35,842 bases of DNA from positions 1 through 35,842 of the forward strand of contig NZ_JAMJEZ010000023.1 of NCBI RefSeq assembly GCF_023544715.1, given 5' to 3'. Positions within the stretch are counted from its first letter, which is position 1, and each line of letters opens with the position of its first letter. Under the pieces are notes generated by a model. It was not told where the DNA came from, did no database searches, and saw only the letters and a program-made list of their open reading frames with translations. This document shows positions 23,547-28,422 of this stretch, piece after piece. The DNA comes from Pseudomonas eutrophicaquae. GTDB lineage: Bacteria > Pseudomonadota > Gammaproteobacteria > Pseudomonadales > Pseudomonadaceae. Made by a program: the position numbers and the translations under genes.

Positions 23547-24188
23547 TCAGCGGGTGCCGAACACCACCATGGTCTTGCCCTTGACGTGCACCAGACCCTG
23601 CTCCTCCAGCGCCTTGAGGACCCGCCCGACCATCTCCCGCGAGCAGCCGACGATGCGGCCGATTTCCTGACGGGTGATCTTGATCTGCATGCCATCGGGG
23701 TGGGTCATGGCATCGGGCTGCTTGCACAGCTCAAGGAGGGTGCGCGCCACCCGGCCGGTGACGTCGAGGAAGGCCAGATCGCCGACCTTGCGGGTGGTCT
23801 GGCGCAAGCGCTCGGACATCTGCCCGGCCAGGGTGTAGAGGATCTCCGGATCCTGCTCGACCAGCTCACGGAACTTGGCGTAGGTGATTTCCGCGACTTC
23901 GCATTCACTCTTGGCGCGTACCCAGGCGCTGCGTGCCGCGCCGCTGTCCTGGCCGAACAGGCCCATTTCACCGAAGAAATCGCCGGGGTTGAGGTAGGAG
24001 ATGATCATCTCGCGGCCATCATCATCCTCGATCAGGATGGTGACCGAGCCCTTGATGATGAAGAACAGACTCTCGCAGCGATCGCCGGCGTAGATGATGG
24101 TGGTCTTGGCGGCAAAGCGGCGGCGGTGGCAGTGCGCCATCAGCTTGTCGAGATGCCTGATCCTGGCGGTGTGGGTGATCGCAACCAT
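23547..24188 (-). CDS. vfr: cAMP-activated global regulator Vfr (CRP family)
   Basis: CRP-family transcription factor that in P. aeruginosa controls quorum sensing, type III secretion, twitching and exotoxin A. The 213-aa protein from the ATG at 24188 ([24 protein letters not shown]) is near-identical in layout to P. aeruginosa Vfr (214 aa). The cAMP pocket shows FFGEMGLF with G73 and E74, then R86 and S87 in RSAWVRAK, and the C-helix has [12 protein letters not shown]. The helix-turn-helix [26 protein letters not shown] lies near 171-196. The loop between GLF and RSAW is one residue shorter than in P. aeruginosa. The frame is open further upstream without family similarity. Confidence 0.96.
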
Positions 24189-24390
24189 TGCGGGTCCTGA
24201 AAAGTGAGAGCGCTTACGGCAGATACGACAGGGTGACAGCCGTCTCCCTGACCTTTCCAAGCTTAACAGAGAGCCTCCCGGCGCAAGCAGCCTGAATGCG
24301 TGGTGCAGTTCTCAGAGTGCAGCCGGGGGAGCGCTGCGTTGTGCTGTGGTAAGCTGCGCCGGTTTTTTATGCGAGTACGGAGTCTGTTGG

Positions 24391-24816
24391 ATGAAAGCGC
24401 GTATCCAGTGGGCCGGCGAGGCCATGTTCCTTGGCGAGTCGGGCAGTGGCCATGTGGTGGTGATGGACGGTCCGCCCGAGCATGGTGGCCGCAATCTCGG
24501 GGTTCGGCCGATGGAGATGCTGCTGCTGGGCCTGGGTGGCTGCAGCAGTTTTGATGTGGTGAGCATCCTCAAAAAGTCGCGTCAGGCGGTGGAGAGCTGC
24601 GAGGCCTTCCTCGAGGCGGAACGCGCCGACAGTGAACCCAAGGTATTCACCCGCATCGACATGCGCTTCGTGGTCAAGGGTCGTGGTCTCAAGGAGGCGC
24701 AGGTCAAGCGGGCGGTCGAGCTGTCGGCGGAGAAGTACTGCTCTGCCTCGATCATGCTCGAGCGCGCCGGGGTGGTGCTGACTCACAGCTACGAAATCGT
24801 CGAACTGGGTGCCTGA
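24391..24816 (+). CDS. OsmC family protein
   Basis: A 141-aa OsmC/Ohr-fold protein. The two conserved cysteines are visible in LLLGLGGCSSFDVVSILKK and AEKYCSASIMLERAGVV, the peroxidatic pair that gives thiol-dependent hydroperoxide reduction in characterised members. It is closer to the YhfA-like branch found beside crp in many gammaproteobacteria than to classical OsmC, and its physiological substrate is unknown. The start MKARIQWAGEAMFL follows GGAG and matches family starts; longer starts lack support. Divergent from vfr and 146 nt upstream of nspC. Confidence 0.85.
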   Translation: MKARIQWAGEAMFLGESGSGHVVVMDGPPEHGGRNLGVRPMEMLLLGLGGCSSFDVVSILKKSRQAVESCEAFLEAERADSEPKVFTRIDMRFVVKGRGLKEAQVKRAVELSAEKYCSASIMLERAGVVLTHSYEIVELGA

Positions 24817-24914
24817 GCGACCTTGGGCACGGTACCGGAGTGACCGGCGCTGCTGATCGGTCGCCGGATTTGCCCGGCGTCCCTCGTATCGACACAATTC
24901 GCCGCCATATTTGG

Positions 24915-24940
24915 CCGGGCAGGTCCCTCGGGCCTGCCGG
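24915..24940 (+). other. Strong hairpin in the nspC leader
   Basis: CCGGGCAGGTCC and GGGCCTGCCGG pair over 11 bp with one bulged G and a CTC loop, ending 22 nt before the nspC ATG. The tract after it (GCGCACTTGCATGGGTTTTC) has only four T, too late for a classical terminator. It could shield translation initiation, end transcripts from the OsmC gene inefficiently, or be part of a larger regulatory leader. Confidence 0.4.
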
Positions 24941-24962
24941 GCGCACTTGCATGGGTTTTCAG

Positions 24963-26060
24963 ATGATCAAAACGCCTTACTACCTCATCGACAAGCAGAA
25001 GCTGCTGGTCAACCTTGAGAAGATCGACTACGTGCGTAAACAGTCGGGTGCCAAGGCCCTGCTGGCGCTCAAGTGCTTCGCCACCTGGTCAGTGTTCGAT
25101 CTGATGCAGCAGTACATGGACGGCACCACCTCCTCGTCGCTCTACGAGCTCAAGCTCGGCCGGCAGAAGTTCGCCGGTGAGACCCATGCCTACAGCGTGG
25201 CCTGGGCCGATGACGAGATCGAGGAGATGCTCGCCAACTCTGACAAGGTGATCTTCAACTCGATCGGTCAGCTTGAGCGTTTTGCCGAGGCGACTGCCGG
25301 CGCCGTGCGCGGGCTGCGGGTCAATCCGCAGGTCAGCAGCTCCGATTATCTCTTGGCCGATCCGGCGCGGCCATTCAGCCGGCTGGGCGAGTGGGATCCG
25401 GCACGCATCGAGGCGGTGATCGATCAGATCTCCGGTTTCATGTTCCACAACAACTGCGAGAACGCGAGCTTCGAGCTGTTCGACCAGATGCTGGATCGTA
25501 TCGAGGAACGCTTTGGCCCTCTGCTCGAGCAGGTGTCGTGGGTCAGCCTCGGTGGCGGGATTCACTTCACCGGCGAGGATTATCCGCTGGATGCCTTCTG
25601 TGCCCGCCTCAAGGCCTTTGCTGAGCGCTATGGCGTGCAGGTCTATCTGGAGCCGGGTGAGGCGGCGATCACCCAAAGCGCGTCGCTGGAAGTCACCGTG
25701 CTGGACACCCTCTACAACGGCAAGCATCTGGCGGTGGTCGACAGCTCTATCGAGGCGCACATGCTCGACTTGCTGATCTATCGCCTCAACGCCAAGATGG
25801 CGCCCTGTCAGGGTGAGTACACCTATATGGTGTGCGGTAAATCCTGCCTGGCCGGGGACATCTTCGGCGAATACCAATTCGATCGTCCGCTGGCCATCGG
25901 CGATCGGCTGTCGTTCATCGACGCAGCGGGTTACACCATGGTCAAGAAAAACTGGTTCAACGGACTCAAGATGCCGGCCATTGCCGTGCGCCAACTCGAT
26001 GGCAGCATCGAGGTGGTTCGCGAGTTTGGTTTCGACGACTACCTGGCCAGTCTTTCCTGA
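24963..26060 (+). CDS. nspC: Carboxy(nor)spermidine decarboxylase NspC
   Basis: PLP-dependent decarboxylase that makes spermidine from carboxyspermidine or norspermidine from carboxynorspermidine. The 365-aa protein has the alanine-racemase-like fold III layout. The likely PLP lysine is K37 in LALKCFA. The Gly-rich WVSLGGGIHFTGEDYP lies at 193-208, with EPGEA at 230-234, and the second active-site loop CGKSCLAGDIFGEY has C295 and D299. The start MIKTPYYLIDKQKL matches the family; an ATG four codons earlier (MGFQM) is possible, and neither has a clear ribosome site. It is followed after 22 nt by the dehydrogenase that supplies its substrate. In P. aeruginosa this slot holds speD. Confidence 0.94.
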   Translation: MIKTPYYLIDKQKLLVNLEKIDYVRKQSGAKALLALKCFATWSVFDLMQQYMDGTTSSSLYELKLGRQKFAGETHAYSVAWADDEIEEMLANSDKVIFNSIGQLERFAEATAGAVRGLRVNPQVSSSDYLLADPARPFSRLGEWDPARIEAVIDQISGFMFHNNCENASFELFDQMLDRIEERFGPLLEQVSWVSLGGGIHFTGEDYPLDAFCARLKAFAERYGVQVYLEPGEAAITQSASLEVTVLDTLYNGKHLAVVDSSIEAHMLDLLIYRLNAKMAPCQGEYTYMVCGKSCLAGDIFGEYQFDRPLAIGDRLSFIDAAGYTMVKKNWFNGLKMPAIAVRQLDGSIEVVREFGFDDYLASLS

Positions 26061-26082
26061 GACTGGCGGCGAGGGAGATAAA

Positions 26083-27321
26083 TTGAAAAGAAACGTTCTG
26101 ATCATCGGTGCTGGAGGTGTGGCCAAGGTCGTGGCCCATAAGTGCGCGCAACACAACGATGAGCTTGGCCAGATAGCGATTGCCTCGCGCAGTATCGCCA
26201 AATGCCAGGCGATCATCGACAGCGTGCAGGCCAAGGGCAGCTTCAAGCAGCCGGCGCAACTCAAGGCCTATGCCCTGAATGCGCTGGATGTCGAGGCAAC
26301 CCAGGCGCTCATTCGTGAAACCGATTCGCAGATCGTCATCAACGTCGGTTCGGCGTTCCTCAACATGTCGGTGCTGCGCGCCTGCATCGAGACCGGGGCA
26401 GCCTACCTTGATACCGCCATCCATGAAGAGCCGGGCAAGATCTGCGAGACACCGCCCTGGTACGCCAACTACGAGTGGAAGCATCTGGCGGAGTGCGAGG
26501 AGCGCGGCATTACCGCGATCCTTGGCGCAGGCTTTGATCCGGGCGTGGTGAATGCCTGGGCGGCGCTGGCCAGTCGCCAGCATTTTGATCGGATCGATTC
26601 GATCGACATCCTCGATGTGAACGCCGGCTCCCACAGCAAGTACTTTGCCACCAACTTCGATCCGGAGATCAACTTCCGTGAGTTCACCGGGCAGGTGTGG
26701 AGCTGGCAGAACGGGCAGTGGACCAGCAACCGCATGTTCGAGGTCAAGCGTACCGATGACCTGCCGGTGGTCGGTGAGCAGAACCTGTACCTGACCGGTC
26801 ACGATGAAGTGCATTCGCTGTCGAAGAATCTGGGCGTGCCGAACGTGCGCTTCTGGATGAGCTTTGGCGATCACTACATCAATGTCTTCACGGTGCTGAA
26901 GAACCTGGGTCTGCTGTCCGAGCAGCCGGTACGCACCGCCGAAGGGCTGGACGTCGTGCCGCTCAAGGTAGTCAAGGCGGTGCTGCCGGATCCGGCCTCG
27001 CTGGCGCCGGGGTATACCGGCAAGACCTGCATCGCTGATCTGGTGCGTGGCGAGAAGGATGGTCGGCCGCGGGAGCTCTTGATCTACAACGTGGCCGACC
27101 ACGAGGAAGCCTACGCCGAGACCGATAGCCAGGGCATCTCCTACACCGCCGGGGTTCCACCGGTGGCGGCGGCGCGCTTGATCGCCCGGGGTGACTGGGA
27201 CAGCCGGCGGATGGTCAACGTCGAGGAGCTGGCGCCGGAGCCGTTCCTGCAGTTGCTGGACCAGATGGGACTGCCGACCCGCATCCGCGATGCAGCGGGG
27301 GATCGTCCCTGGGATCAGTGA
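26083..27321 (+). CDS. Carboxy(nor)spermidine dehydrogenase
   Basis: NADPH-dependent enzyme that condenses L-aspartate 4-semialdehyde with putrescine or 1,3-diaminopropane and reduces the Schiff base to carboxyspermidine or carboxynorspermidine. The 412-aa saccharopine-dehydrogenase-like protein opens KRNVLIIGAGGVAKVVAHK (Rossmann GAGGVA, residues 9-14). It has the family segments INVGSAFLNMSVLRACIETGAAYLDTAIHE (split around residues 86-115) and ILGAGFDPGVVNAWAA, and ends LPTRIRDAAGDRPWDQ. Translation starts at TTG after GGGAG, 22 nt past nspC. The amine substrate cannot be read from sequence. With no diaminobutyrate enzymes nearby, putrescine, hence spermidine, is the simpler guess. Confidence 0.93.
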   Translation: MKRNVLIIGAGGVAKVVAHKCAQHNDELGQIAIASRSIAKCQAIIDSVQAKGSFKQPAQLKAYALNALDVEATQALIRETDSQIVINVGSAFLNMSVLRACIETGAAYLDTAIHEEPGKICETPPWYANYEWKHLAECEERGITAILGAGFDPGVVNAWAALASRQHFDRIDSIDILDVNAGSHSKYFATNFDPEINFREFTGQVWSWQNGQWTSNRMFEVKRTDDLPVVGEQNLYLTGHDEVHSLSKNLGVPNVRFWMSFGDHYINVFTVLKNLGLLSEQPVRTAEGLDVVPLKVVKAVLPDPASLAPGYTGKTCIADLVRGEKDGRPRELLIYNVADHEEAYAETDSQGISYTAGVPPVAAARLIARGDWDSRRMVNVEELAPEPFLQLLDQMGLPTRIRDAAGDRPWDQ

Positions 27322-27350
27322 GGCGCGGCGCGTCGCTATCTGATCCACCA

Positions 27351-27386
27351 ACAAAAAGGGGTGCCCAGTGGGGCACCCCTTTTTGT
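27351..27386. terminator. Bidirectional terminator between the polyamine pair and coq7
   Basis: A perfect 16-bp stem runs from ACAAAAAGGGGTGCCC to GGGCACCCCTTTTTGT with an AGTG loop, giving T-runs on both strands. It serves the convergent dehydrogenase (+) and coq7 (-). Confidence 0.93.
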
Positions 27387-27399
27387 ATGGCGTCGCGCC

Positions 27400-28047
27400 T
27401 CAGAGGCGATAGGTACTGCTGGTCATCACCTTGGCCAGCAGACGCATGCCGAACTTGACCGAGGCCGGGAAGCGCAGGCCGCCGGCCTCCAGTGCATTGC
27501 TGGCATGTTCCAGCTCGTCATGGCGCATTTGCTCGAGAATGGCCCGCGAGCGCAGGTCGCTGCCTGGCAGCTCCTGCAGGTGACTGTCCAGGTGCCGGAC
27601 CACCTGATCTTCCGTCGCCGCGACAAAGCCCAGGCTGACCCGGTCGCTGATCAGCCCAGCGCCTGCGCCGATCCCCAGCGACAGGCCATAGAACAGCGGG
27701 TTGAGCAGGCTGGGGCGTCCGCCCAGTTCACGGATGCGCTGTTCGCACCAAGCCAGATGATCGATCTCCTCATCGGCGGCCTGCTCCATGGACTGGCGGG
27801 TTTCCGGCAGCTTGGCGGTCAGTGCCTGGCCCTGGTACAGCGCCTGGGCGCAGACCTCACCGGTGTGATTGATGCGCATCAGGCCGCAGACGTGACGCCG
27901 CTCGTGCTCGTCCAGTGGCGTATCGAGCAGTGCCTGGGCCGGGGAGGGGCGTGCCGGCTGGCCGCTGAACGGCAGCAGGGTGCGCAGCGCCGCATCGGCC
28001 TGCATCAGCAGGCGATCGGCGGGAGAGTACTGGCGTTGCAGGTTCAT
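27400..28047 (-). CDS. coq7: 2-polyprenyl-3-methyl-6-methoxy-1,4-benzoquinone monooxygenase Coq7
   Basis: Di-iron hydroxylase of ubiquinone synthesis, acting on demethoxyubiquinone; it replaces UbiF in organisms such as Pseudomonas. The 215-aa protein carries the carboxylate-bridged di-iron ligands in [32 protein letters not shown] and [14 protein letters not shown]. The overall helical bundle is four helices, with a hydrophobic Gly-rich segment in the middle ([18 protein letters not shown]) that contacts the membrane. It is last in the minus-strand hemJ-SDR-HIT-coq7 group, 36 nt after the HIT gene. Confidence 0.96.
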
Positions 28048-28083
28048 CGCGATCTCCTTGGTGGCCGGTTCAGGCGTGAAGGC

Positions 28084-28422
28084 TCAGCCCGGTGGCCAGT
28101 GCAGCTGGCGCTGACCGAGCACATGCAGGTGGATGTGATAGACGGTCTGCCCGCCGAGCGCGTTGCAGTTCATCACCACCCGGAAACCCTCCTCGCAGCC
28201 CTGCTCGCGGGCCAGTCGCTGGGCGGTATAGAGGATGTGGCCGAGCAGGGCGCGGTCTTCTTCGCTGGCGTCGTGCAGGGTGGCGATGTGTTTCTTGGGA
28301 ATGACCAGAAAATGCACCGGCGCTTGGGGGGCGATGTCGTGGAAGGCGATCACCTGATCATCTTCGTAGAGCATGCGGGCCGGGATATCACCGTTGACGA
28401 TCTTGCAGAACAGACAGTCCAC
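28084..28422 (-). CDS. HIT family (HINT-type) purine nucleoside phosphoramidase
   Basis: A 112-aa histidine-triad protein beginning MDCLFCKIVNGDIPARMLYEDDQVIAF. The catalytic HIHLHVLG triad (H96, H98, H100) lies near the C-terminus, which ends LHWPPG. HINT-type members hydrolyse AMP-linked phosphoramidates such as adenylyl-lysine. The physiological substrate is unknown. It is placed before coq7 as in P. aeruginosa. Confidence 0.93.
   Translation of the reverse strand: MDCLFCKIVNGDIPARMLYEDDQVIAFHDIAPQAPVHFLVIPKKHIATLHDASEEDRALLGHILYTAQRLAREQGCEEGFRVVMNCNALGGQTVYHIHLHVLGQRQLHWPPG

Follow-up and report, generated by a model that had tools for sequence, protein, structure and literature searches.

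How did one genome of the Pseudomonadaceae come to carry the genes nspC and casdh at the chromosomal place that speD occupies in its sisters, and has one route to spermidine been replaced there or has a second one been added? The genome analysed (G000; small, at 2.55 Mb, 57 contigs, 99.85% complete) is a draft, and the window is its entire contig C15, of 35,842 bp. Its family is taken from the closest named nspC loci, which belong to Pseudomonas and Stutzerimonas. We consider it very probable that nspC and casdh are transcribed as a unit from a promoter of their own and make spermidine without SpeD and SpeE, and that this unit took the speD slot, with speE lost as well.

The left side of the slot consists of vfr, for a CRP/Vfr-type cAMP-activated regulator (23547..24260, minus strand; NF008732, 361 bits against a cut-off of 266), which is a conserved neighbour with the same place in the sister slots, and of osmC, for an OsmC-family protein (24391..24816, plus strand; NF008009, 160.6 bits against 138; 87–94% identity to eight sisters), which forms the conserved left border. 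The conserved right border is coq7 (27400..28047, minus strand; NF033656, 299.6 bits against 180). Between them lie nspC, or casdc, for a carboxyspermidine decarboxylase of 365 aa (24963..26060, plus strand, with an ATG at 24963 and the stop at 26060), and casdh, for a carboxyspermidine dehydrogenase of the saccharopine-dehydrogenase superfamily, of 412 aa and with a TTG start (26083..27321, plus strand). An earlier note on this DNA had described nspC and a carboxy(nor)spermidine dehydrogenase gene, 22 nt apart, between a vfr/OsmC pair and coq7, and the coordinates, including the 22 nt spacing, and the profile matches bear this out.

NspC matched TIGR01047 over nearly its full length (406.1 bits, E 9e-122), missing the cut-off of 409.05 by 3 bits. 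In a profile search this cut-off was passed by 26 of 199 genomes of the family, indicating that it falls within the Pseudomonadaceae nspC group. The protein aligns over its full length with the solved members 3mt1, 9eaf and 3n29 and keeps the ALK and CLAGD stretches; 9eaf has AQK in place of ALK, with the lysine kept. We take ALK to be the PLP lysine site, and the roles of residues in both stretches are likewise presumed. CASDH scored 433.4 bits against NF043000 (with one codon more than the 412 aa), below a cut-off of 800 that none of the 199 family genomes passed in the profile search; we take NF043000, a carboxynorspermidine synthase family, to be of the Vibrio type. CASDH passes Pfam Sacchrp_dh_NADP (112.3 bits) and Sacchrp_dh_C (110.9 bits), and its solved relatives are 4ina and 8deb, the latter a 'Carboxyspermidine dehydrogenase' matched at E 1e-92. 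With NspC 3 bits under TIGR01047 and CASDH far under NF043000, neither assignment is thus a curated-equivalog call.

Genome-wide searches of G000 for SpeD (PF02675) and for the SpeE N-domain (PF17284) gave no match, and Escherichia coli and seven other genomes, used as positive controls in the SpeD and SpeE searches, all gave matches. A lone weak TIGR00417 match (32.3 bits against a cut-off of 249.55) fell on a 248-aa SpeE-like protein (L001) that is under every aminopropyltransferase cut-off; since no speD was found, this protein would be without decarboxylated SAM. Nine genomes of the genus (g1) were compared, G000 included. All eight sisters contain both speD and speE and show the order vfr-osmC-speD-coq7, G062 among them, and none gave a match for nspC (protein search) or casdh. 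The earlier note had given this arrangement for P. aeruginosa (PA0653-speD-coq7), and the sisters agree with it. It had also proposed replacement and asked for a genome search for speD and speE; neither gene was found in this nearly complete genome, both are present in eight of eight sisters, and no slot that we read holds the two gene sets together. The presence of nspC-casdh at the speD slot is therefore, at the gene level, a replacement of speD/speE and not an addition. The sister speD shares with the pair its chromosomal place and expected end product; it encodes an unrelated enzyme, an AdoMet decarboxylase whose partner SpeE uses decarboxylated SAM.

Blastn comparison of the slot edges with the sisters located both junctions. 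On the left (24809..24830), similarity to the sister slots ends at 24818–24830 in six of the eight, 2–14 nt beyond the osmC stop, and at 24809 in the other two, 7 nt short of where the stop codon ends. On the right (27322..27420, from the edge and the whole slot), it restarts at about 27351 in L054, at 27380 in L050, and at 27397–27420, at or inside coq7, in the remaining six. The stretch CGACACAATTCGCC upstream of the window nspC resembles one that precedes nspC elsewhere. Within 95 nt upstream of nspC, GGCACAAT was found in 75 of 80 named loci and GGCA[CG]AAT in 78; the window counterpart of GGCACAAT is GACACAAT. These 80 loci are the best of at least 592 candidates, a selection that may leave out records near G000. 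By eye, CACAAT (24893..24898, plus strand) is a candidate −10 element, and the pair looks like it carries its own promoter. From the halt and return of similarity at the junctions and the nspC-type upstream stretch, the speD leader and gene are gone from the slot, and the pair has taken their place with a promoter-like stretch of its own.

The presumed nspC leader contains a stable hairpin (24914..24945, plus strand), and the entire leader folds at −28.7 kcal/mol. Leaders of the window (24899–24962) and of named nspC loci have stable hairpins at a similar place with varying sequence. A regulatory RNA here is conceivable; the hairpins come from single sequences, a 30-row alignment of leaders gave no consensus structure or pair, and an Rfam search of window positions 24100–28200 returned three matches only, all under the gathering score. 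A terminator-like hairpin, recognised from the sequence and alignments, occupies the casdh/coq7 interval (27353..27384). The seven aligned sisters have their speD/coq7 hairpin at this position, and of the eight only L054 aligns with it over its whole length. A comparison for exact repeats gave no sign of a mobile element or of repeats at the junctions: the two gap regions share none longer than 7 nt, and those of 7 nt are inverted.

By homology, CASDH would join putrescine and aspartate β-semialdehyde into carboxyspermidine by reductive condensation, and CASDC would decarboxylate this to spermidine. The genome contains three AR-fold decarboxylases (PF02784), which from their sequences we take to be LysA-, ODC (SpeC)- and ADC (SpeA)-like, and a 753-aa lysine/ornithine/arginine-type decarboxylase that lies under every cut-off. 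From the ODC-like and SpeA-like genes and the 753-aa decarboxylase, a supply of putrescine is probable, so that G000 can probably make it. The saving of SAM and methylthioadenosine that the earlier note had put forward is to be expected at the level of the pathway.

Among the sequences compared, the pair is closest to the rhizobial CASDC/CASDH, which makes spermidine from putrescine, not norspermidine, the likely product. It is improbable that the pair instead makes norspermidine or acts on agmatine. The NspC name does derive from norspermidine, G000 has a SpeA-like gene, and CASDH homologues vary in their preference for putrescine or agmatine according to PMC11999265; putrescine-route species described there are without ADC, whereas G000 has the SpeA-like gene. 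Against this, the casdh mutant of Sinorhizobium meliloti, whose CASDH is 73.8% identical, loses spermidine, the gene being needed for spermidine in vivo (PMC13293326); an ODC-like gene, the kind linked with the putrescine route in PMC11999265, is present in G000; and CASDH scores below the carboxynorspermidine synthase cut-off of NF043000.

Vibrio has homologous enzymes with homologous chemistry, in a norspermidine route whose dehydrogenase gene comes first. The decarboxylase-first order that the earlier note had contrasted with Vibrio is indeed seen at the window; it is not special to this locus, since all 140 loci that have the two genes, counting the window, show this order on one strand, and S. 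meliloti has it too. There, casdc-casdh (SMb21631/SMb21630) encodes the same two enzymes in a predicted operon with the decarboxylase first and the genes 43 nt apart (PMC13293326). The S. meliloti proteins are 71.8% (NspC) and 73.8% (CASDH; plasmid-borne in S. meliloti 1021) identical to those of G000. Unlike the G000 pair, the rhizobial one is plasmid-borne, near genes for β-oxidation and PAA catabolism, and S. meliloti also makes homospermidine (both from PMC13293326). Closer at hand, other Pseudomonadaceae (P. peli, P. guineae, Stutzerimonas, P. putida and others) contain the same pair, in the same order and with the promoter-like stretch, at 84–91% protein identity to G000 in the 80 named loci (the best of at least 592). 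These pairs differ from that of G000 in their surroundings, as vfr, osmC and coq7 are absent from the flanks (up to 7 kb) in 80 of those 80 loci. In 32 of them the pair adjoins an mksB-like gene, and in 28 of these also rimI; the names mksB, mks, rimI and pqi at these loci are our presumption.

Another 91 genomes bear the pair. The coq7 side of their speD slot was read in 58, and none of the 58 holds the pair, which answers the comparison across relatives proposed in the earlier note, the eight sisters having speD alone. In 52 slots osmC and coq7 are 10–428 bp apart, three hold another frame, and three are without osmC by coq7 (G089, G124 and G198); the slots of G089 and G124 were seen from the coq7 side only, and G198 has speD beside osmC, away from coq7. 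The slot of G096 (L159, osmC-coq7) contains a decayed speD fragment, with 207 bp matched at 80% identity, in a genome with the pair and an orphan speE. The gap in G035 holds a small open frame, and the 1.1-kb slots of G135, G167 and G191 (L169, L178 and L185) hold an opposite-strand frame of about 350 codons, membrane-protein-like by eye, and gave no match for speD. In a sample of 399 genomes, the 30 top-scoring casdh loci (flanks up to 1.5 kb) included no second in-slot case. The in-slot pair is thus peculiar to G000 among the genomes examined, a single case.

Of 199 Pseudomonadaceae genomes sampled, 92 have nspC together with casdh; in this tally the nspC of G097 is partial, and weak matches and G087, with a casdh-like frame containing one stop, were not counted. 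Cross-tabulation gave 104 genomes with speD and speE only, 70 with the pair only, 12 with the pair, speD and speE, 10 with the pair and speE, two with speE only (G037 and G104, both less than 90% complete) and one with none; speD without speE was found in none of the 199. The pair and speD/speE are nearly exclusive (Fisher's p 2e-38, n=199, a test that takes no account of kinship). A fewest-changes count on a tree of flank genes, whose 61 rows were picked for their loci and not at random, gave at least 11 changes for each trait, and across eight independent pairs a mean of 6.8 differed in opposite ways and none in the same way (sign test, median p 0.016); the species trees were built from 4–5 genes, all at the slot itself. 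All four states coexist in genus g15 (32 sampled), with 11 genomes bearing speD and speE, nine both routes, nine the pair and speE, and three the pair only; its rows lie mostly among Stutzerimonas in the NspC/CASDH tree, with G124 apart. Exchange of the spermidine route seems to have occurred repeatedly in the Pseudomonadaceae. The states seen, with the pair plus orphan speE present and speD without speE absent, suggest that speD is lost before speE. The ten genomes with an orphan speE, the pair and no speD are G015, G073, G082, G089, G096, G148, G152, G168, G183 and G186; unless it serves some other purpose or is in decay, the SpeE of these genomes (10 of 199) would be without substrate.

In the flank genes, G000 falls inside g1 (support 100/100), less firmly together with G062 (91/72), and g1 stands next to genus g16 (97/97). 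The pair groups with that of G016, of g16, on long branches (SH-aLRT 95, quick tree), at 89.6% protein identity; the other g16 genome, G032, has a weakly placed branch elsewhere in the NspC/CASDH tree. In its nspC-casdh spacer G000 is similar to both g16 genomes, G016 and G032, and unlike the three others compared. The ratio of pair to flank divergence between G000 and G016 lies at the 8.5th percentile of 741 pairs and is not clearly unusual, and GC3 is 0.81 and 0.80 in the two pair genes, with other genes at 0.78–0.87. A foreign composition was rejected, as the reduced GC of the two genes does not show at third positions and nspC has a GC below that of its locus in 14 of 14 named loci listed. 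With neighbour-like GC3 and ordinary divergence, the pair gives no sign of a recent transfer, and the data fit either descent from a g1+g16 ancestor that carried the two routes or an ancient acquisition from a relative of g16.

These data bear on the order of events. One serious candidate, if somewhat short of probable, is that the pair was added, that speD and speE were lost stepwise, and that the pair then moved into the vacated slot, so that the shared place would be partly coincidental. Intermediates of the kind it proposes occur among the 199 genomes (both routes in 12, the pair with an orphan speE in 10, speD but no speE in none), G096 retains a decayed speD fragment in its slot, closed-up slots are common (52 of 58 read), and the nearest tree relative of the pair is in the sister genus g16, as descent predicts. 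However, on this course the pair must have undergone losses within g1, where eight of nine genomes are without it, and must by chance have landed flush where speD had been. Relocation within G000 from the usual mks-rimI site is not supported, since its rimI region (L214, 9 kb, reaching 4.6 kb upstream of rimI) contains rimI, genes resembling pqi and one conserved gene, but neither mks nor the pair, and the pair is also absent from the five sister rimI regions read, of which L219 has mks; an old move is possible.

It is also quite conceivable, if not quite probable, that a casdc-casdh unit from a g16 relative entered the speD slot by recombination and displaced speD in a single step. The flush junctions, the terminator-like hairpin at its old place, the promoter-like stretch that came with the pair, the intact speD slot of the sister G062 and the affinity of the pair to g16 all favour such a swap. 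It is weakened by the lack of exact repeats longer than 7 nt between the gap regions and by a large divergence from G016, in the normal range; the loss of speE would also be needed, and the hairpin aligns in full with one of eight sisters only. An assembly chimera or contamination is very improbable: the genome is a 57-contig draft and the case is confined to it, yet osmC on the left and coq7 and hit on the right are closest to g1 within one 35.8-kb contig, the GC3 of the pair is like that of its neighbours, and speD and speE are, as an independent matter, missing from the rest of the genome, so that a cell to which the pair did not belong would have no way of making spermidine. Stepwise addition, loss and relocation and the direct swap are both compatible with the data and about equally likely. 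In either case the casdc-casdh unit would have taken the chromosomal speD slot, with speD and its leader lost from the slot and speE lost from the genome. A bolder reading, possible but less likely than not, is a one-step in-slot exchange in G000, together with a series in the family (speD and speE, both routes, pair and orphan speE, pair only) that recurs many times in one order, with speD going before speE.

The CASDC/CASDH route and its enzymes are already known, and the biochemistry is ordinary. New are the single exchange observed within the slot and the switching that recurs, with intermediates, across the family, neither of which we found in the literature searched; nor did this literature yield a description of CASDC/CASDH or of speD loss in Pseudomonas, of which older work may have one. 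One well-sampled family thus shows apparent stages of a swap between unrelated routes to the same polyamine, from the old route, through both and the new one with an orphan speE, to the new one alone, plus closed-up slots and one decaying speD fragment, and G000 is the one case found with the new genes in the place of the old. These stages make the gap-free exchange of an important pathway directly testable. If this family were annotated by speD/speE, the likely route to spermidine would be overlooked in about 40% of the genomes sampled (80 of 199).

Neither route was found in G132 (7.0 Mb, 100% complete), possibly a spermidine auxotroph or the bearer of a third route. The casdh-like frame of G087 (C23:4289-5467), interrupted by one internal TGA in a genome with speD and speE, is possibly a decaying copy. 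Finally, G126 (C1:5663510-5663827) and G154 (C1:5311504-5311821) contain, beside ordinary speD and speE, a second, distinct SpeD homologue (L032 and L033; 126–128 bits) with a SpeE-N match about 300 bp downstream.
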